Origin: a virus
Virus record (IMG/VR): IMGVR_UViG_3300042731_009673
Location: 1 to 25,900 of that record
Direction: 5' to 3' (one strand)
Length of the DNA: 25,900 bases
The notes below the pieces were generated by a model. That model had not been told where the DNA came from, did not search any database, and was given only the letters and a program-made list of their open reading frames with translations. The first letter of the stretch is position 1. Each line of letters begins with the position of its first letter. Position numbers and translations under genes: made by a program. Positions 17,395 to 24,176 of the stretch are shown piece by piece.

Positions 17395-17820
17395 TTAACG
17401 TTTTCCGCTGTCCTCGTGAGGTTCGATGTACATCACATCATGGTGATCCTCGTCCACGGTGAAGTACACGCGGCGGATCCCGTACCGCGAGAGCACCTGC
17501 CGGCACATCTCACACGGTTTGGCCAGCGCGATGTCGCCGTTCTTCGTGACCCTGGCGACGTACATCTTGCACCCGTCAAGGTCGATCTTCCTGCGGACCT
17601 TGAACACCGCGTCGATCTCCGCGTGCACGGTCCCGTCCGGGTGGTTCCCGTGGAAGAAAACGTACTCGTTCTGCCTCCGCGAGTTGACCCCCACGGACAG
17701 CACCTTCCCGCCCCTCACGATGACCGCCCCGAGGTGGGCAGGCAGGTCGTCCGGCAGACCGGTCCCTCGGGCCGCCTCGATGGCCACGAGAAAAAACCTG
17801 CTCAACCCGTCAATTGCCAC
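17395..17820 (-). CDS. CMP/dCMP-type (cytidine) deaminase family protein
   Basis: A 141-residue zinc deaminase. The catalytic motifs are intact: H67-A-E69 (HAEIDAVF) and P102-C-E-M-C106 (KPCEMCRQVL), giving the His/Cys/Cys zinc ligands and the Glu proton shuttle. The length fits the free-nucleotide deaminases. The substrate (dCMP, cytidine, a modified base or tRNA) cannot be settled from sequence; a nucleotide-metabolism role is the default for phage members. Translation starts at a GTG overlapping the RNA ligase stop (TAGTG), so it is probably the second gene of a ligase-deaminase transcription unit. It converges on the kelch gene with 10 bases between stops and no visible terminator hairpin. 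Confidence 0.85.
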   Translation of the reverse strand: MAIDGLSRFFLVAIEAARGTGLPDDLPAHLGAVIVRGGKVLSVGVNSRRQNEYVFFHGNHPDGTVHAEIDAVFKVRRKIDLDGCKMYVARVTKNGDIALAKPCEMCRQVLSRYGIRRVYFTVDEDHHDVMYIEPHEDSGKR

Positions 17821-19025
17821 TACCTGTCGAGCCCAAGATTCTTGAGAAGGGTGTCAAGGGCCCTCGTGCCCAACCGCCCGTGCGAGGCGAGGTTCCTGAG
17901 GACGTTGATCGCCTCGAATCCCCTGCCATCCAACAGGCTAAAGTAGACCGCGTGCCACTCGTGAGGGTTTGCGGTGACAAGTCGTGCGAACGTCTTGCGA
18001 TCACCGTTCGCCTCATCACGGCACTTCACGTAGAAGTTGTTGGTGCGAAGGTTCCACTCGCGCAGGGCGTCCTGCATCCTGCGCAGGTAGACCTTGGTCT
18101 CATCGCAGACCAGCGGGATCACGTCATCAAGGCGACCCTCGATCGCGGCGAACAACGCGTTCCTCCGCGAGGAGGTCACGCCGTCCTTCATCTTGGACGC
18201 AAGAACGTAGGCCTCGCTCTTGATCTTCATGCGACGGAACTTGGAATCAACGATCACCACACCTTCGGACTCCTTTGGGTCCTTGAGGTTCACCGCCGCC
18301 GCGATCGTCTTCGGATCGTAGAGGTTCCATCTCTCCGGCACGGGATAACCCATGAACTCCGCGATCTTGTTCACGTCTCCGCGCTCGCTCAAGTCGCCGA
18401 TGAGCTCGCGGACCGCGAGCAACGTGACCTTCCAATCGTCGTACTTGACAACGATTCGGTTGAATGGAGTCGTGAGCTCGAACACGTAGTTGAAGTACCT
18501 GACGGAGGATTCCTCAAGGTGACACTCGAACTGACGACCCGTGGTCACGGCGTATGCCTGACGAAACAACTTGCCAAACGTCATGTCATCGCCGGTGAAG
18601 TCGTTGATCGGAAGGTCCGCCTCAGGCACGGAACGCGTGGCGGTGCACCAGATCTCCTTGAGGGGATCAAAGTACACGCACACCATCGTGCCGTCAAGCT
18701 TCTCGAGGACGTGAAGGATGGGATCACTGAAGTCCACCTCCGCGACGCAGTCCTGACCCAGGTTGAAGAACCTGTCCATGGGATACGCCAGCACCGTGGT
18801 CTCACCCACGATTCCGGACCTCCAACAGCAATCAAGGTCCTTAGGACGCAGCACGAGACCGCGACACTGGCACGCCAGTGGGTCCGTCTCCTTGCTCGCG
18901 ATCTGGTCGTAGTTCAGGCTGAACTTCGTGCCGTCCGTGTCGGCGCGCCAGTTAACACCGTGCTCTTCCTTGAGTTCATCAAGGGTGTGCGTCAATAGGT
19001 AATCCTGTACGAGTAGCGTCCTCAT
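17820..19025 (-). CDS. rnlA: RNA ligase, T4 Rnl1 type
   Basis: A 401-residue member of the T4 RNA ligase 1 family (T4 Rnl1 is 374). The nucleotidyltransferase motifs occur in order: CRGLVLRP (54-61), YPMDRFFNLG (81-90), motif I EKLDGTMV with the adenylated lysine K109, motif IIIa VFELTTPFNR (181-190), motif IV ESEGVVIV (252-259) and motif V MKIKSEAY (266-273). The C-terminal 120 residues are helical, as in the tRNA-specificity domain of Rnl1. Known Rnl1 enzymes reseal tRNA cut by host anticodon nucleases, working with an end-healing kinase/phosphatase; no such kinase is in this window, but HAD and cREC-like proteins are nearby. Its ATG shares the bases CATG with the divergent HAD gene. Confidence 0.92.
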   Translation of the reverse strand: MRTLLVQDYLLTHTLDELKEEHGVNWRADTDGTKFSLNYDQIASKETDPLACQCRGLVLRPKDLDCCWRSGIVGETTVLAYPMDRFFNLGQDCVAEVDFSDPILHVLEKLDGTMVCVYFDPLKEIWCTATRSVPEADLPINDFTGDDMTFGKLFRQAYAVTTGRQFECHLEESSVRYFNYVFELTTPFNRIVVKYDDWKVTLLAVRELIGDLSERGDVNKIAEFMGYPVPERWNLYDPKTIAAAVNLKDPKESEGVVIVDSKFRRMKIKSEAYVLASKMKDGVTSSRRNALFAAIEGRLDDVIPLVCDETKVYLRRMQDALREWNLRTNNFYVKCRDEANGDRKTFARLVTANPHEWHAVYFSLLDGRGFEAINVLRNLASHGRLGTRALDTLLKNLGLDR

Positions 19026-19599
19026 GTCAGTTCCATTCTACCACAGGTTGCTCCGCGAGTTCACCGTCCAGGAGGTCTCACGTAAAAGATCACGTCGAAA
19101 ACTACGCGTTTTCGACTTCGATGACACGCTCGTGACAACGGACGCGGTGGTCAGGGTGAGGAAGGCCACGGGTGAACGACTGCGTCTCACACCTGGACAG
19201 TTCGCGTTGTACCAGAAGGAACCCGGAGACATCATGGATTACGGCGACTTCGAGACGCTGAAGAACCCACGCAAGATACTGTGGACGAACAGGATCATCG
19301 AATCGCTGTACGCAAAGTACGGACCTTCGGGTTTTGTTATCCTGACCGCCCGTGGCGAGCACGGTCCGGTCGAGAAGTTTCTGATCGATGCAGGATTGCC
19401 TGGCGTCGAGGTCGTGGCTCTCGGATCGTCAGATCCCAAGGCAAAGGCACGTTGGGTCTCGATGAAGATCGAGACCGAGGACCTCGATTACGTTGAGTTC
19501 TTTGACGACTCAGTGAAGAACATCGCGGCCGTCGCCGCGATCAGACCCGACCATCCGAACACGGACATCGTGGTCAGGCACATCAGATCGTCACAGTAA
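19024..19599 (+). CDS. HAD-superfamily phosphatase, 191 aa
   Basis: All HAD motifs are present: motif I VFDFDDTL (nucleophile D31, acid D33), motif II VILTAR (T108), a candidate motif III lysine in DPKAKARW (K139 or K141) and motif IV EFFDDS (D161, D162). The cap is small. Proteins of this type are common in large phages; the substrate is unknown, and 3'-end or nucleotide dephosphorylation is plausible beside an RNA ligase. It is the only plus-strand gene among minus-strand neighbours, overlapping the ligase start by 2 bases and the next gene's stop by 9. The start is uncertain: no SD precedes the ATG at 19024, TTG at 19048 is an alternative, and an AGGAGGT at 19070-19076 has no in-frame start after it. 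Confidence 0.82.
   Translation: MSVPFYHRLLREFTVQEVSRKRSRRKLRVFDFDDTLVTTDAVVRVRKATGERLRLTPGQFALYQKEPGDIMDYGDFETLKNPRKILWTNRIIESLYAKYGPSGFVILTARGEHGPVEKFLIDAGLPGVEVVALGSSDPKAKARWVSMKIETEDLDYVEFFDDSVKNIAAVAAIRPDHPNTDIVVRHIRSSQ
19035..19043 (-). promoter_or_regulatory. Possible extended -10 element for the RNA ligase gene
   Basis: Read on the minus strand this is TGGTAGAAT, an extended -10-like hexamer TAGAAT with a TGn upstream, ending 10 bases before the ligase ATG. A start point about 7 bases downstream would give an almost leaderless mRNA. No good -35 is seen. It lies within the 5' coding part of the divergent HAD gene and could be chance. Confidence 0.25.
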
Positions 19600-20064
19600 A
19601 CTTTCTTCTTTTTCAACCTCGGCGGCCATGATCACGTCCCAGCCTAGCTGCGAGTCAACAACGTTGATCGGCTGCACGACGTAGTCTTTGGTGATGACAC
19701 TACGTAGGGGCAAGACGTCGTCGACCACCCACCCAGCATGCATCAAGGACAACATTCCTCTCGGATCCTGTGTCTCCGTGAGTTGAAGTGACTTCATCAA
19801 CCTCACAGCCGAGATCCTCGTACCGTGGGTATCAAACCCGCCAGGCGCGGATGCATCTTCGTAGACGTATTGGTTTCCCAACCATTCGACCTCTATGAAG
19901 TTCGACGAATCGAGCGTCACCACTTCCACGTTCGGAAACGTGCTGAGCGCCTGCGGCGACATCCTGTACGTCTTGATCCACGAGTACATCGTTTCGGCGT
20001 TCGGAAACAGCGGAAAGTCGTGCTCCTGAACGCCGGGTCTGAGGTTTACACGTACGAGTCTCAT
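19591..20064 (-). CDS. Hypothetical protein, 157 aa
   Basis: No family is recognised. The protein is acidic and soluble with no membrane segment or cysteine. Its middle part (VEVVTLDSSNFIEVEWLGNQ, YVYED) looks like a small beta sheet, and its C-terminus ends in an acidic helix (AAEVEKEESLL). An SD-like AAGGA lies 11 bases before the ATG, and that ATG overlaps the stop of the upstream gene (TGATG), so the two are likely cotranslated. The 3' end overlaps the convergent HAD gene by 9 bases. Confidence 0.65.
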   Translation of the reverse strand: MRLVRVNLRPGVQEHDFPLFPNAETMYSWIKTYRMSPQALSTFPNVEVVTLDSSNFIEVEWLGNQYVYEDASAPGGFDTHGTRISAVRLMKSLQLTETQDPRGMLSLMHAGWVVDDVLPLRSVITKDYVVQPINVVDSQLGWDVIMAAEVEKEESLL

Positions 20065-20462
20065 CAGTGTTTGGTTCCTTTGTTGTCAACGAACTCATGG
20101 GCCAGCATGATGTCAACGTGGTCGCTCAGCTGCCTGGTGACGGACGCGTTTTTCACCTCGATCCACGGTCGCGTGTCGATCTCTTCATCGTCGTCAATAC
20201 CGCGATCGTAAAGAACCCGCGCAACATCGTGATCGCACAGCATCTCACCCGTTTCTGGATTCTCAAACGTTGCCAGTCGCCCACACTGTGAACACGGACG
20301 GATTGAACACAACGCCTCGTTGATGAGGATCGATTGGCTTGCGATTGCCGTGGCTGACACGCCGACGATCTGTTCGAGCTTCGCCATCCGTTCGATCACC
20401 TTGATGAGCACGGCAACTGACACGTTCCAATCGTATCCCGTTCGTGCGTGATGTTTTGGCAT
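20064..20462 (-). CDS. Hypothetical protein with a possible zinc-binding motif, 132 aa
   Basis: An N-terminal helix (about residues 15-35) is followed by a candidate metal site, C-S-Q-C then about 15 residues and C-D-H (RPCSQCGRLATF, then MLCDHDV), spaced like a small zinc ribbon. The C-terminal part is acidic and mixed. No family is recognised. The ATG at 20462 lies 4 bases after the mature end of tRNA-Ile and has no SD; M26 (ATG at 20387) has an AAGGTGAT about 8 bases upstream and is an alternative start. Confidence 0.6.
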   Translation of the reverse strand: MPKHHARTGYDWNVSVAVLIKVIERMAKLEQIVGVSATAIASQSILINEALCSIRPCSQCGRLATFENPETGEMLCDHDVARVLYDRGIDDDEEIDTRPWIEVKNASVTRQLSDHVDIMLAHEFVDNKGTKH

Positions 20463-20465
20463 CGG

Positions 20466-20541
20466 TGGGCCACAAGGGAATTGAACCCTTTAACGCAGAT
20501 CCTTATAAGAGACCCGACCCTGACCGAGAGTGCAATGGCCC
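20466..20541 (-). tRNA. tRNA-Ile (anticodon TAT)
   Basis: Acceptor GGGCCAT pairs with GTGGCCC; the anticodon arm is GGTCT-CTTATAA-GGATC with U33 and anticodon TAT (reads AUA). The T-arm is AAGGG-TTCAATT-CCCTT, and the discriminator A is followed by CCG, so CCA is not encoded. The variable region looks slightly long (about 7). Confidence 0.88.
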
Positions 20542-20549
20542 TCAATAGG

Positions 20550-20738
20550 TCACCGACGTATCACGGGGTCGACGGAGCTGACGCGTTCCATCGACACTAT
20601 CTTTGGGATGTCATTCGTTTCGATGCAGATCTCACCCTCGCGGTGCCAGACGCCCACGAGCTTCACCCCTGCGCGAACCAGGTCTCGCGCGAGCGTGTAG
20701 GCTTCACAGCCTTCGACGGGTTTCACGATGTACTTCAT
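20550..20738 (-). CDS. Small hypothetical protein, 62 aa
   Basis: I chose the ATG at 20738, which has an AGGTGG-type SD 9 bases upstream; the frame is open further 5' only because it runs through tRNA-Gly. The protein starts MKYIVKPVEGCEAYTLARDL and has a beta-alpha-beta pattern with an aromatic GVWHREGEI hairpin. No family is recognised. It is tucked between tRNA-Gly and tRNA-Ile, so it is probably cotranscribed with them. Confidence 0.6.
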   Translation of the reverse strand: MKYIVKPVEGCEAYTLARDLVRAGVKLVGVWHREGEICIETNDIPKIVSMERVSSVDPVIRR

Positions 20739-20780
20739 CTCACAGATCCACCTTTTCCACGACAATCCATACCCCTTCTG

Positions 20781-20853
20781 AGCAAGCAGCGGGATTCGAA
20801 CCCGCACCTCCTGGTTGGAAGCCAGGCATGCTGCCATTAAACACCATGCTCAC
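20781..20853 (-). tRNA. tRNA-Gly (anticodon TCC)
   Basis: Acceptor GTGAGCA/TGCTTGC (some G-U pairs), anticodon arm CCTGG-CTTCCAA-CCAGG with anticodon TCC, T-arm GCGGG-TTCGAAT-CCCGC, discriminator U as is usual for bacterial Gly. CCA is not encoded. Confidence 0.9.
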
Positions 20854-20861
20854 CTGGTTTT

Positions 20862-21095
20862 TCACTTTCTTATCGGAATCTTCTGCGTTAGCGGTTCATC
20901 GGTTGACGGATTCCCACCGAGTCCCATCGCCAGGCCGTTGGCCTTCGTTGCAACCTGCATGACCTCCCTACGCAGTACCTTGAGGTTCCCGATGAGCCGC
21001 GGGTCATCGGAACGTCCGATCAGGTCCTCCACCTGACGCTCCACGTCGTTCAGTTGGTTCATGATCGCCCACAGCTCGGGTCTGATGTTCTTCAT
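20862..21095 (-). CDS. Small helical hypothetical protein, 77 aa
   Basis: Starts at ATG 21095 with a GAGG SD about 6 bases upstream; a longer reading would run into tRNA-Ser(GGA). The protein is mostly one long amphipathic helix (ELWAIMNQLNDVERQVEDLI, then a second helix LKVLRREVMQVATKANGLA), consistent with a coiled-coil or oligomerising protein. The tail is polar. No family or function is recognised. Confidence 0.6.
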   Translation of the reverse strand: MKNIRPELWAIMNQLNDVERQVEDLIGRSDDPRLIGNLKVLRREVMQVATKANGLAMGLGGNPSTDEPLTQKIPIRK

Positions 21096-21116
21096 GTCTG
21101 CCTCAGACCTTAAGTA

Positions 21117-21207
21117 TGGCGGAAGGCGCGGGGGTCGAACCCGCAAGGCTGTTACGCTCGTCCGGCTTCCAACCGGGTGCCGTCGCCAACTTTCGGCTAG
21201 ACCTTCC
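21117..21207 (-). tRNA. tRNA-Ser (anticodon GGA)
   Basis: Acceptor GGAAGGT/GCCTTCC, anticodon stem CCGG/CCGG with loop TTGGAAG (GGA), a long class II variable arm (about 16 bases), T-arm GCGGG-TTCGACC-CCCGC, discriminator G, and CCA encoded at 21117-21119. The long variable arm and G73 support serine identity. Confidence 0.9.
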
Positions 21208-21312
21208 TCACAGCAAAAACGTGATCACGACCAACGTACCTAGTATCGTGATCAACGTAACGTAATCCCAAAACCCGAACCTGTACTTCCTTGGGTTTGG
21301 TGGGACGTTCAT
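21208..21312 (-). CDS. Small single-span membrane protein, 34 aa
   Basis: An ATG-to-TGA reading of 35 codons fills the gap between two serine tRNA genes; its stop abuts the 5' end of tRNA-Ser(GGA). The protein has a basic N-terminus (PPNPRKYRFGFWD) followed by a hydrophobic segment of about 18 residues (YVTLITILGTLVVITFLL) ending exactly at the stop. That is the layout of a tail- or C-terminally anchored micro-membrane protein with its N-terminus in the cytoplasm. No convincing SD is seen. Function is unknown. Confidence 0.5.
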   Translation of the reverse strand: MNVPPNPRKYRFGFWDYVTLITILGTLVVITFLL

Positions 21313-21334
21313 CACGGGATCAGTGAATTCCGAG

Positions 21335-21424
21335 TGGCGGAAGGAGGGAGAGTCGAACTCCCAAGGGGGTTTAATCCTCGACCGGGTTCGAGCCGGTTGC
21401 CGTCGCCCATCGGCTTGCCCTTCC
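21335..21424 (-). tRNA. tRNA-Ser (anticodon CGA)
   Basis: Acceptor GGAAGGG/TCCTTCC, anticodon arm ACCGG-CTCGAAC-CCGGT with anticodon CGA, long variable arm (about 18 bases), T-arm GGGAG-TTCGACT-CTCCC, discriminator G, CCA encoded at 21335-21337. Confidence 0.92.
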
Positions 21425-21442
21425 GTACCGCACAGTCCATAC

Positions 21443-21802
21443 CTATTGGCCGTACGGGATGTGTATGCTGGTGATTCCCCTGTCTCGCATGAAGTTCACC
21501 ATGTTCTGCGCCCCCACCGGGTTCCATGAGTGAACCACGATCGCGCCAGGAACACGATCACGGGGGAGTTCATCCGTGATGAACCTAACGACGTCCATCC
21601 CAGACCTCTCGACCAAAGTCTCATCGTCCAGCACTTCCCACTCTCCGAGGTCATGATCAAGTTGAACACGGTCAAACCATAGGTTGGACAGGGCGCTTAT
21701 CGCCTCGCTCACGCTCCTGGCGTGCACCACGTAGTGTCCCGAAAACCTGGCCGAAAACCAATCGTGACGCTGTTCCTGATCGTCCAAAACGAGGATCTTC
21801 AT
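21443..21802 (-). CDS. Receiver-like protein, cREC (cyclic-phosphate-processing receiver) type
   Basis: Starts at ATG 21802 (SD AAAGGA 8 bases upstream); longer readings run through tRNA genes. The 119-residue protein is a lone receiver-like domain: MKILVLDDQEQRHDWF with D7/D8 at the acidic pocket, QLDHDLGEW (D49, H50, D51) at the position of the phospho-acceptor strand, and VVHSWNPVGAQNM (H91, S92, N94). The HD and HSWNPVGA signatures match the family I know as cREC, predicted from genome context to act on cyclic-phosphate RNA ends, rather than ordinary response regulators. There is no output domain or histidine kinase nearby. The RNA ligase and HAD neighbours fit an RNA-end-processing role, which remains unproven. 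Confidence 0.65.
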   Translation of the reverse strand: MKILVLDDQEQRHDWFSARFSGHYVVHARSVSEAISALSNLWFDRVQLDHDLGEWEVLDDETLVERSGMDVVRFITDELPRDRVPGAIVVHSWNPVGAQNMVNFMRDRGITSIHIPYGQ

Positions 21803-21825
21803 CGTTCTTTTCCTTTCGTGATTTG

Positions 21826-21912
21826 CGGAGAGGGTGGGATTCGAACCCACGGTGGTGTTACCCACATCCGGGTAGCGGCCGGATACGATAAGCCTGGCTC
21901 TGTCACCTCTCC
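21826..21912 (-). tRNA. tRNA-Ser (anticodon GCT), with C33
   Basis: Acceptor GGAGAGG/CCTCTCC, T-arm GTGGG-TTCGAAT-CCCAC, long variable arm and discriminator G. The anticodon arm TCCGG-CCGCTAC-CCGGA puts GCT at 34-36 but C, not U, at position 33. CCA is not encoded. Confidence 0.85.
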
Positions 21913-21925
21913 ATGTGAATGATTT

Positions 21926-21999
21926 TGGTACCCAGCGAGGGAGTCGAACCCCCACCTCCTCCGTGTAAGAGAGGCGCGCTACCGTTACGCCAGCCGGGC
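21926..21999 (-). tRNA. tRNA-Val (anticodon TAC)
   Basis: Acceptor GCCCGGC/GCTGGGT, D-arm GCGT-AACGGTA-GCGC, anticodon arm CCTCT-CTTACAC-GGAGG (TAC), T-arm GGGGG-TTCGACT-CCCTC, discriminator A, CCA encoded at 21926-21928. Confidence 0.92.
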
Positions 22000-22010
22000 G
22001 TGTTCAGGCC

Positions 22011-22547
22011 TCAACCTACAAGGTTCCTAATTATACCCTCACGCGTGCTTTGTGTGCTTGACCTTGTTGGACGTCTCACCTGAGGAACCGGGTGTGCGAT
22101 GAACTCGACACCCGCGTCCATAACAGCGATCTCAAAACCGACGAGGTGACCGAACCTATCATCCCAGGCCTCGACGATCTCGATCGCCGGGTTTTCACGG
22201 ATGTACTTTGCGATCTTGAGTTCCTTGTACCGCGCCGTGGGCATGCCGACAGGCGTCAGCGCCACGTCGTCAAACGTGAGTCCCGCCTGGTCGAGCAGGT
22301 CGAGGATCCTACCGAGGTTCTCGCCACGTTTACGACCCGTGATCATCACCGTCATCACGTCAGGATCGGCCATCGACCGCAACGCTGCACTCACAACGGG
22401 AGAGTTCCACCATGTTGGACCGGGTCGATCGGGTACAAACGGTGGAAGCAACGACGCCGGGTTATCCCACCACTTTCCCTTCCACCCGCGAGGCGGAAGC
22501 GGGCTCGCAAAAAGTGTTCCGTCGAAATCGAAAACGTAAAGCTTCAC
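22011..22547 (-). CDS. HAD phosphatase resembling the Swiss Army Knife RNA-repair HAD family
   Basis: Starts at GTG 22547, one base after the stop of the upstream gene (TGACGTG), giving 178 residues beginning MKLYVFDFDGTLFASPLP. HAD motifs: D7/D9 (FDFDGTLF), T70 (VMITGRK), K111 (ELKIAKYI), D129/D130 (EAWDDR). Between motifs I and II it has GKWWDNPASLL and PTWWNSPVV, tryptophan-rich segments that I associate with the HAD_SAK_1 family linked to RNA repair. It differs clearly from the other HAD protein at 19024-19599. The substrate is unknown; removal of terminal phosphates from RNA is a reasonable inference next to a ligase and a cREC protein. Confidence 0.72.
   Translation of the reverse strand: MKLYVFDFDGTLFASPLPPRGWKGKWWDNPASLLPPFVPDRPGPTWWNSPVVSAALRSMADPDVMTVMITGRKRGENLGRILDLLDQAGLTFDDVALTPVGMPTARYKELKIAKYIRENPAIEIVEAWDDRFGHLVGFEIAVMDAGVEFIAHPVPQVRRPTRSSTQSTREGIIRNLVG
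22030..22035 (-). promoter_or_regulatory. Possible -10 box (TATAAT) upstream of the tRNA-Val/Ser cluster
   Basis: A perfect TATAAT on the minus strand, 30 bases before the 5' end of tRNA-Val(TAC), inside the last codons of the HAD gene. No good -35 is visible at 16-18 bases, so a phage-type or activator-dependent promoter would be needed. Confidence 0.35.
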
Positions 22548-22548
22548 G

Positions 22549-23031
22549 TCAATAAGTAGGCCACCACGCCGGCGCCGGCCGGGTGCGGTTCCACCTGGCA
22601 ATGTCCTTCTTCTCATGGATGTAGTACGCACGGTACGACAGAACGGCGTCCTTCCTCTTGTACGCATCAGGCATTGCAAGGGCAAAAGAGCTCGGATCAG
22701 CAACCTCATCAACGTCTGGCCACGGACGGTTTTCAAGCGACCAGACGATAGCATCGTAACACCCGTGTTCCTTATCGTACCTAAACGTGTACTCGCTCAA
22801 CAACGCAAGCGCGTGGCGCTGCAACCACCACCAGTTCTTGACATCCGAGGCTGCCCAAAGCGTACAAGGGTGATGCACGTGAGTCGACCTGTACGGAGCG
22901 TTTCCGTTTCCGTGGATCCTCGCGACGGTTGAGAGCATCTGGGCGCTCTCGAGGACCATCTTGACCACGTGCTTGTCACATTGCATCTGTGCGGCTAACG
23001 CGGGTGACCTATCAAGGACGAATATGTTCAT
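22549..23031 (-). CDS. Conserved phage protein with CDKH motif, 160 aa
   Basis: The sequence matches a family I have seen in many large and cyanophage genomes: it opens MNIFVLDRSPALAAQMQCDK, continues HVVKMVLESAQMLS, then HVHHPCTLWAAS, and later FALAMPDAYK and AVLSYRAYYI, ending in a WWP motif. The invariant-looking Cys, His and Lys residues (CDKH near 18-21, HHPC near 53-56) suggest metal binding or catalysis, but I know of no proven function. The ATG overlaps the stop of the upstream peptidyl-tRNA hydrolase (ATGA), and its own stop is one base from the GTG of the HAD gene, so the three are probably one cotranslated unit. Confidence 0.7.
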   Translation of the reverse strand: MNIFVLDRSPALAAQMQCDKHVVKMVLESAQMLSTVARIHGNGNAPYRSTHVHHPCTLWAASDVKNWWWLQRHALALLSEYTFRYDKEHGCYDAIVWSLENRPWPDVDEVADPSSFALAMPDAYKRKDAVLSYRAYYIHEKKDIARWNRTRPAPAWWPTY

Positions 23032-23420
23032 AGGGGTTTCAAGTGTCCTGTGACCTTATCAACAACGTCGACGTATGTCGGACCGAACGCAGCGCACGTC
23101 ATCGTTGGTTCACCGTGAAATTCCGTACGACCTGAGTCAACTATCGGATACACCTCGATACCCATGAGCTTCGCCTTTAGTATGAGGTCACCGAGTTGGT
23201 CCTCAGAATCGCAACCCAGGACGATCTTGGTGAAAGCTTCACCCTTCCAGATCGCCTCGGTCTCGTTGAGCGGAACCTCCAACCTCATCGGATCGTCTGA
23301 CTCGTTGTTGTCAAAGACGAACTTCATGGCCGCGTGGCCTACCTGTGCCGCGAGCTTTCCCTTCCTCATGTTCAGGTCCTTCCGCACGACGATGACCTGC
23401 TTGACCTCGCGTTCACCCAT
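23028..23420 (-). CDS. Peptidyl-tRNA hydrolase, type 2 (Pth2 family)
   Basis: 130 residues, slightly longer than the usual 115-residue Pth2 core. Family signatures are clear: VVRKDLNMRKGKLAAQVGHA (K22, Q26, H29) at the active site, FTKIVLGCDSEDQLGDLILK (helix packing), IVDSGRTEF (D95, G97, R98, T99) and the terminal DKVTGHLKPL. Pth2 frees tRNA from peptidyl-tRNA dropped by stalled ribosomes. It is standard in archaea and eukaryotes while bacteria normally use unrelated Pth1, so a phage copy is notable. The SD AAGGA lies 8 bases before the ATG. It overlaps the upstream gene by 8 bases and the downstream gene by 4. Its place among tRNA genes supports a translation-maintenance role. Confidence 0.9.
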   Translation of the reverse strand: MGEREVKQVIVVRKDLNMRKGKLAAQVGHAAMKFVFDNNESDDPMRLEVPLNETEAIWKGEAFTKIVLGCDSEDQLGDLILKAKLMGIEVYPIVDSGRTEFHGEPTMTCAAFGPTYVDVVDKVTGHLKPL

Positions 23421-24017: not shown

Positions 24018-24095
24018 TGGTACCCCCGGTAGGATTCGGACCCACAACCTCTCGAGTAGAAATCGAGCGCTCTATCCAGTTGATGCTACGGGGGC
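24018..24095 (-). tRNA. tRNA-Arg (anticodon TCT)
   Basis: Acceptor GCCCCCG/CGGGGGT, anticodon arm CTCGA-TTTCTAC-TCGAG (TCT, reads AGA), T-arm GTGGG-TCCGAAT-CCTAC with C at the usual second T-loop position, discriminator A, CCA encoded at 24018-24020. The D-arm resembles other Arg tRNAs but carries one extra A in its 5' strand. Confidence 0.88.
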
Positions 24096-24096
24096 A

Positions 24097-24176
24097 TGGA
24101 GCCGACCACAGGATTCGAACCCGCATGTGTCCAATTACCCTTTCACCGCCTTAGGAGGGCGAGGGGATACGCCGGC
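24097..24176 (-). tRNA. Aberrant tRNA-Arg-like gene (anticodon CCT), no canonical D-arm
   Basis: The 3' half is normal: T-arm GCGGG-TTCGAAT-CCTGT, acceptor strand GGTCGGC, discriminator U and encoded CCA (24097-24099). The 5' strand GCCGGCG pairs with it at six of seven positions. The anticodon arm TCGCC-CTCCTAA-GGCGG is clear and gives CCT (reads AGG). However, only 7 bases separate acceptor and anticodon stems, too few for a D-arm, and 21 bases separate the anticodon arm and T-stem. Those 21 bases include a D-loop-like AATTGG. It could be a D-armless tRNA, a rearranged tRNA or a decaying pseudogene. It lies 1 base upstream of tRNA-Arg(TCT). Confidence 0.55.

Follow-up and report, generated by a model that had tools for sequence, protein, structure and literature searches.

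The window analysed here, a 25.9-kb virus record with T4-type baseplate genes taken as a whole, carries in its tRNA array an RNA gene with an arginine CCT anticodon, acceptor, anticodon and T arms and CCA, and no D hairpin between the acceptor and the anticodon arm. The question raised by this locus is whether such an RNA can be a working tRNA. Our comparative results indicate that the gene is very probably a functional elongator tRNA-Arg reading AGG, in a previously undescribed structural class of phage tRNAs. The class itself is probably natural, widespread and functional, with a D-loop placed 3' of the anticodon arm and a D-stem equivalent that wraps this arm; nearly all of its members are phage Arg or Ile tRNAs, which would be accepted by bacterial synthetases, EF-Tu and ribosomes, and it would have been overlooked because tRNA finders assume the cloverleaf order.

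The gene occupies 24176-24097 on the minus strand and is 80 nt long (77 nt plus the encoded CCA). Its first half reads GCCGGCG TATCCCC TCGCC CTCCTAA GGCGG TGAAAGGGTAATTGGACACAT, and after TGAAAGGGTAATTGGACACAT it continues as GCGGG TTCGAAT CCTGT GGTCGGC T CCA. The minus-strand sequence confirmed the acceptor, anticodon arm, T-arm and encoded CCA described in the original prediction, and the spacings given there, 7 nt from acceptor to anticodon stem and 21 nt from anticodon stem to T stem, proved exact, as did the length. The D-loop-like AATTGG that had been noticed on the wrong side of the anticodon arm was confirmed too; no other stretch of the linker is as conserved. The acceptor stem forms 6 of 7 pairs, with G7.G66 as a mismatch, and the anticodon loop CTCCTAA has the 7 nt and U33 of a canonical tRNA, to which the acceptor/discriminator/CCA end and the T-loop consensus also conform. 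The features of the gene and its two canonical Arg neighbours are as follows.

24097..24176, minus strand: whole Arg(CCT) gene in the new architecture, from the sequence and covariance model R1 (81 bits, element in the training set)
24170..24176, minus strand: acceptor 5' strand GCCGGCG, pairing at 6/7 positions with 24101-24107; across the family each of the 7 pairs covaries
24167..24169, minus strand: connector U8 A9 U10; U8 and A9 invariant in 36 diverse members, and U8 could form a U8-A14 tertiary pair
24164..24166, minus strand: 5' strand CCC of the helix wrapping the anticodon arm, pairing with 24138-24140; 100% paired and covarying (36 sequences)
24146..24162, minus strand: anticodon arm TCGCC-CTCCTAA-GGCGG, from the sequence and a covarying helix; anticodon CCT at 24153-24155
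24141..24145, minus strand: conserved bulge N-GAAA opposite C14; G33, A34, A35, A36 and C14 invariant in 36 same-layout members
24138..24140, minus strand: 3' strand GGG of the wrapping helix, pairing with 24164..24166 (covariation)
24130..24137, minus strand: relocated D-loop UAAUUGGA, with invariant TAA..GG, nt15 x nt48 covariation and nt20 following the amino acid; it holds A14-A15-like and GG18-19-like bases and A20, the Arg identity base
24125..24129, minus strand: linker CACAU, its final base the U48 equivalent (A15-U48 / G15-C48 covariation)
24108..24124, minus strand: T arm GCGGG-TTCGAAT-CCTGT, from the sequence and covariation
24101..24107, minus strand: acceptor 3' strand GGTCGGC, from the sequence
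24097..24100, minus strand: discriminator U73 and encoded CCA, from the sequence
24018..24095, minus strand: canonical Arg(TCT) tRNA found by ARAGORN, one nucleotide downstream in the same array and with another anticodon
24520..24594, minus strand: canonical Arg(CCG) tRNA found by ARAGORN, upstream in the same array

Canonical Arg(TCT) and Arg(CCG) genes thus lie on either side of the new Arg(CCT) gene, and among the 389 Arg codons of the window AGG is the most frequent, with 99. The region adjoining the array (17820-23420) codes for a set of RNA-repair and tRNA-handling proteins, namely a T4-type RNA ligase, a PNK-like protein, a HAD/SAK protein and the peptidyl-tRNA hydrolase PTH2.

Standard models did not recognize this copy. 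ARAGORN listed ten other tRNAs in the window, all on the minus strand, and missed the Arg(CCT) element, while Rfam RF00005 scored it below its gathering threshold of 29 bits and did not report it; the best Rfam match, even at E<=10, was tRNA-Sec (RF01852) with 16.4 bits against a cut-off of 47. Folding of the lone RNA was no better than that of shuffled sequence (z = 0.02), and since the single-sequence fold is unexceptional, the evidence has to be comparative.

No close relatives of the window were found through searches with its neighbouring proteins, an exact-sequence pattern of the element found no relatives, and DNA blast of the 800-bp neighbourhood matched only where the neighbouring canonical Arg(TCT) tRNA and the sequence flanking it lie. 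Because no close relative of this neighbourhood was found, positional orthologues could not be compared, and the family was found through spacing patterns instead. A pattern of CTCCTAA, 18-44 nt and GGTTCGAATCC, run on viral contigs, returned 54 stretches, most of them ordinary or chance matches and several with the same odd layout built from different bases. An anticodon-blind pattern of linker and T-arm returned at least 120 stretches; among the matches listed nearly all had the new layout, and those all carried Arg anticodons. Since this pattern fixed the A after GG, a second anticodon-blind pattern forbidding A at that base was run, and it returned 57 stretches, almost all of them Ile (TAT, GAT) or CAT, with one Trp. 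A class restricted to Arg was therefore rejected as an artefact of the fixed A20 in retrieval. In bacterial and archaeal genomes (257 Gb) a scan returned no more than 33 stretches, and where the new layout was present it mostly lay within dense tRNA arrays.

A structural descriptor (acceptor, anticodon arm 5-10 nt on, 14-31-nt linker with TA[AG]..GG, T arm) gave 256 hits on 2.29 Mb of fetched loci, a few of them misparsed ordinary tRNAs, and none on shuffled copies. Early descriptor hits without UAA..GG were mostly misparsed ordinary tRNAs and were dropped. Filtering by isotype and UA at 8-9 left, with isolates included, 250 members in 195 loci (210 distinct members in an earlier set) from IMG/VR, annotated phages and a few bacterial contigs. 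The new architecture therefore recurs in hundreds of phage loci, far beyond chance, with member frequencies that are biased because A20 was fixed in much of the Arg retrieval and the T-loop motif in every pattern. Default ARAGORN overlapped 11/210 members and mostly got the ends or the isotype wrong. With RF00005 some relatives score 29-39 bits (38.6 for the one at locus L283, just above 29 for several others), so that an early view that Rfam misses every member was wrong.

All but two members are Arg or Ile, CAT included. The single Trp member (L231 from 127, plus strand) has the anticodon CCA, G20 and G73, and the single Lys member (L196, minus strand) has the anticodon CTT and lies beside another member in the fetched loci; the architecture may therefore extend, rarely, beyond Arg and Ile. 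Among bacterial contigs, new-type Arg genes were seen in Bradyrhizobium and Acidobacteriaceae (L238, L240, L263) within dense tRNA arrays that also hold canonical Arg tRNAs with other anticodons, and these arrays are probably mobile or phage-derived.

At least 16 sequenced isolates carry the new architecture. Structurally checked members come from the Streptomyces phages Jay2Jay, Mildred21 and TomSawyer, Rhizobium phage RHph_I1_18, Mesorhizobium phage Cp1R7A-A1, Microbacterium phage Zooman, Vibrio phage 1.170.O, Klebsiella phage KB57, Xanthomonas phage XacN1, the crAss-like Kehishuvirus 'tikkala', Felix O1, wV8, EmilieFrey and 121Q. The member of EmilieFrey (BASEL Bas61) is an Arg(TCT) gene at 143204-143282. 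Judged only by blast, the KB57 copy has matches in 257 phage records and none in the E. coli genomes searched.

The new fold is established by covariation in 36 diverse members that share one gapless layout, the window element included. From the 5' end, the chain runs through the acceptor, UA, a 3-bp strand, the anticodon arm, a bulge and the pairing 3-bp strand, and then through UAAnnGGn (the "D-loop"), a linker ending in U/C48, the T arm, the acceptor and N73, often with an encoded CCA. The 3-bp helix 11-13:37-39 encloses the anticodon arm and is paired in 36/36 sequences, with pair 12-38 found as UA, CG, GC and AU and pair 13-37 as CG and GC, and compensatory changes occur in every helix of the structure. 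The covariation score of the whole structure was 0.919, as compared with 0.200 for shuffles and no more than 0.186 after sliding the partner, values that overstate significance since the 36 sequences are related and not independent. Unguided RNAalifold returned the same structure except for one weak anticodon-stem pair. When columns were set independently of pairing, with the acceptor as one anchor and the UAA motif as the other, no two positions were more strongly coupled than nt12 and its partner (MI 1.56; paired in 97%). Long-linker members also show a coupling of nt10 to the base two positions after nt20 (80% paired), and in all 79 of them nt15 x nt48 is perfect (A-U 74, G-C 5). Invariants of the gapless set include U8, A9, C14, the bulge GAAA, UAA and GG. 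Covariance model R1, trained on the 36 sequences with the window element among them, gave this element 81 bits as a training-set member and the isolate members 47-89 bits, with 29-33 for two that have an extra hairpin and at most 29 for ordinary tRNAs.

These results bear on the possibility that the RNA is truly D-armless, as in mitochondria, with an anticodon arm that follows directly on the acceptor and a long variable region that is spacer and not a docked D-loop. There is indeed no hairpin between acceptor and anticodon arm, and the mitochondrial mode of ARAGORN detects 46/210 members, often with wrong ends. RF00005 skips the D-arm when aligning the EmilieFrey member and places a 20-nt insert between anticodon arm and T arm; this alignment arrives at the layout independently, and no hidden canonical D-arm was found in it. 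A mere spacer, however, is difficult to reconcile with a linker in which UAA..GG is invariant, nt15 and nt48 covary and nt20 tracks the amino acid, with a covarying helix around the anticodon arm, or with the retention of elbow sequence in the T-loop and the total length of a normal tRNA, and we regard this explanation as unlikely. The class resembles the D-armless animal mitochondrial tRNA-Ser (AGY/GCU) in its short connector and in lacking a D-arm between acceptor and anticodon arm, but its D-loop has been moved rather than lost, the T-loop and GG elbow bases and the full length are kept, the isotypes are Arg and Ile, and the genes are found in phages. The original prediction of a D-armless RNA holds in that no D-arm precedes the anticodon arm, and fails in that the D-loop UAAnnGGn is conserved, relocated 3', with a covarying D-stem-like helix wrapping the arm. 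Its wider suggestion of a rearranged tRNA, very unusual outside mitochondria, is supported.

The amino-acid identity of the members was considered next to the identity elements described for bacterial tRNAs, which are A20 (the main determinant), C35 and U/G36 for tRNA-Arg, with U73 also listed, and U20, A73, A35 and U36 for tRNA-Ile (PMC9976931). Where retrieval left the base at nt20 free, A20 was present in 49/50 Arg members and U20 in 14/15 Ile/CAT members, in agreement with these sets. A73 was found in all 53 Ile/CAT members and U73 in 50/155 Arg members, and the window copy also has U73. The CAT members carry the Ile element C4-G69 in 11/14 cases and the Met element U4-A69 in 0/14, and by these bases they are probably Ile2, a Met reading being less likely. 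Overall, the family spans many Arg and Ile anticodons, ACG and GAT included, with 7-nt loops and U33 intact, and CCA is encoded in 123/250 members.

The genes are also placed as tRNA genes are, the nearest canonical tRNA being on the same strand in 228/229 cases and within 100 nt in 127. Slot filling was tested in 115 loci with at least 5 canonical tRNAs, using stretches of up to ~15 kb (40 kb once) and not whole genomes. New and canonical Arg(ACG) genes occurred together in 2 loci against 10.9 expected (p=2.7e-5), and new and canonical Arg(TCT) genes in 2 against 10.3 (p=7.7e-5); exclusion in Ile slots was not significant in the same loci, so that the statistics are clear for Arg ACG and TCT only. 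Arg members thus tend to fill an anticodon slot without a nearby canonical tRNA. An example is Felix O1, whose genome paper expected an Arg[AGA] tRNA and did not find it (PMC3185647), and in which a new-type Arg(TCT) gene lies at 25951-26029, overlapping an annotated HNH ORF.

From the identity bases, the clusters, the slot filling, the AGG usage of the window and the Felix O1 gap, we infer that these RNAs are charged and decode as elongators, and the recurrence of the same plan in hundreds of phages, almost always for Arg or Ile, looks like a real and overlooked class of working tRNAs. In the mechanism that we propose, the 3-bp helix would stack on the anticodon stem in the place of the D-stem, under the elbow. 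The relocated UAAnnGGn would dock on the T-loop, with GG contacting the T-loop, U8 pairing with A14 and A15 with U48, and the docked loop would rebuild the elbow and with it the L-shape. Base 20 would then be presented to the class Ia synthetase, A20 to ArgRS and U20 to IleRS. After release from a polycistronic tRNA transcript and charging by the host synthetase, the RNA would serve at the ribosome, where it would supply the phage with a tRNA for a codon that the canonical phage tRNAs leave uncovered.

A non-decoding tRNA-like RNA, either a decoy for anticodon nucleases or a regulator that retains tRNA processing features, is an equally improbable account. Phage tRNAs are known to counter tRNA-cutting defences (PMC10264068), and the stable RNA RNAX of phage T5 starts with a related element that lost the anticodon arm, so non-decoding derivatives can exist. 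However, a decoy need not span different isoacceptors, whereas the new-type genes have many Arg and Ile anticodons in intact loops, identity bases that agree with these anticodons, and a CCA that is often encoded. The decoy or regulator once proposed for this gene is therefore unsupported, given also the location of the family in tRNA clusters and the tendency of Arg members to take slots left free by canonical tRNAs.

Far less credible is a tRNA gene that is permuted or spliced and yields a canonical cloverleaf. The order of elements is non-canonical, as it is in circularly permuted tRNA genes, where the 3' half comes before the 5' half and the cloverleaf is restored by RNA processing. In the new type, by contrast, the gene starts with the 5' acceptor strand and finishes with the 3' one and CCA, covariation of the wrapping helix fits the chain as it stands before any splicing, nothing is left to build a D-stem, no bulge-helix-bulge splice motif was apparent on inspection, and the RNA itself has the new order. 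That the gene is dying, as also suggested originally, or an assembly error has next to no probability: one acceptor mismatch and the failure of tRNA finders speak for it, but it is refuted by conservation in hundreds of independent contigs from unrelated phages and in at least 16 sequenced isolates and by compensatory changes in every helix, the window copy keeping all invariant positions of a family that shows the opposite of degradation.

A working tRNA of the new class would have much in common with canonical tRNA-Arg and tRNA-Ile (RF00005): the 7-bp acceptor, CCA, 5-bp T stem and TTCGAAT-type loop, the 7-nt anticodon loop with U33, U8, an AA-nn-GG loop and 15-48 covariation, as well as A20 for Arg and U20 and A73 for Ile. 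It differs in the position of the D-loop, 3' of the anticodon arm, and in a D-stem equivalent that encloses this arm and does not close the D-loop, in having 7 nt (versus about 18) before the anticodon arm and about 20 (versus 4-5) after it, and in that the window copy is missed by RF00005 and ARAGORN. Like tRNA-Sec (RF01852) and other non-canonical bacterial tRNAs, which have altered stem lengths, it is natural, but those keep the cloverleaf order (PMC7609411); the window copy moreover has 16.4 of the 47 bits needed for tRNA-Sec and the anticodon CCU, not UCA. The review of these bacterial tRNAs mentions no phage or virus tRNA (PMC7609411). A laboratory-evolved tRNA without a normal D-arm indicates that bacterial translation can use such a molecule; the new class differs from it in being natural and phage-borne and in keeping a relocated D-loop. 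The paper on that tRNA states that all known bacterial tRNAs are cloverleaves and that natural armless ones are only mitochondrial. Our search of open-access reviews and papers found no description of the class, and as preprints and most subscription papers lay outside this search, priority is not certain.

A functional class of this kind would mean that tRNA elements need not follow one another in a fixed linear order and that translation needs only the three-dimensional core, which phages would have rebuilt along another chain path with the Arg and Ile identity bases retained. It would also explain missing tRNAs in well-studied phages such as Felix O1, make phage tRNA counts and codon-supply studies incomplete, and open to experiment the question of how the D-arm is read by synthetases, tRNA modification enzymes and tRNA-cutting defences. 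Annotations would be corrected as well: the new-type gene of 121Q is annotated as tRNA-Leu(taa) (L284 4999-5080), that of Mildred21 as tRNA-Phe(gaa) (L272 3001-3076), and several would replace a 'tRNA-OTHER'.

The 'tRNA-OTHER' annotation was seen on new-type genes of several Klebsiella and E. coli phages (L283, L278 and others), and other new-type genes are unannotated, sometimes under or overlapping ORF calls. New-type Arg(ACG) genes of Xanthomonas phage X1 (L273 2995-3085) and Stenotrophomonas phage DLP6 (L279 2995-3084) have an extra, class-II-like hairpin between nt20 and the T arm. GOLLD RNAs (RF02032) were found inside tRNA arrays of Cp1R7A-A1 (L275 3602-4064) and X1 (L273 5048-5477). 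T5 RNAX (L266 15433-15504; T5 41432-41503) is annotated as a stable RNA of unknown function, and the related element in its 5' part consists of the acceptor, CCGUAACUGG and the T arm (27 bits), with the anticodon arm reduced to a short loop; its linker and T-arm part has blast matches in hundreds of T5-like records.
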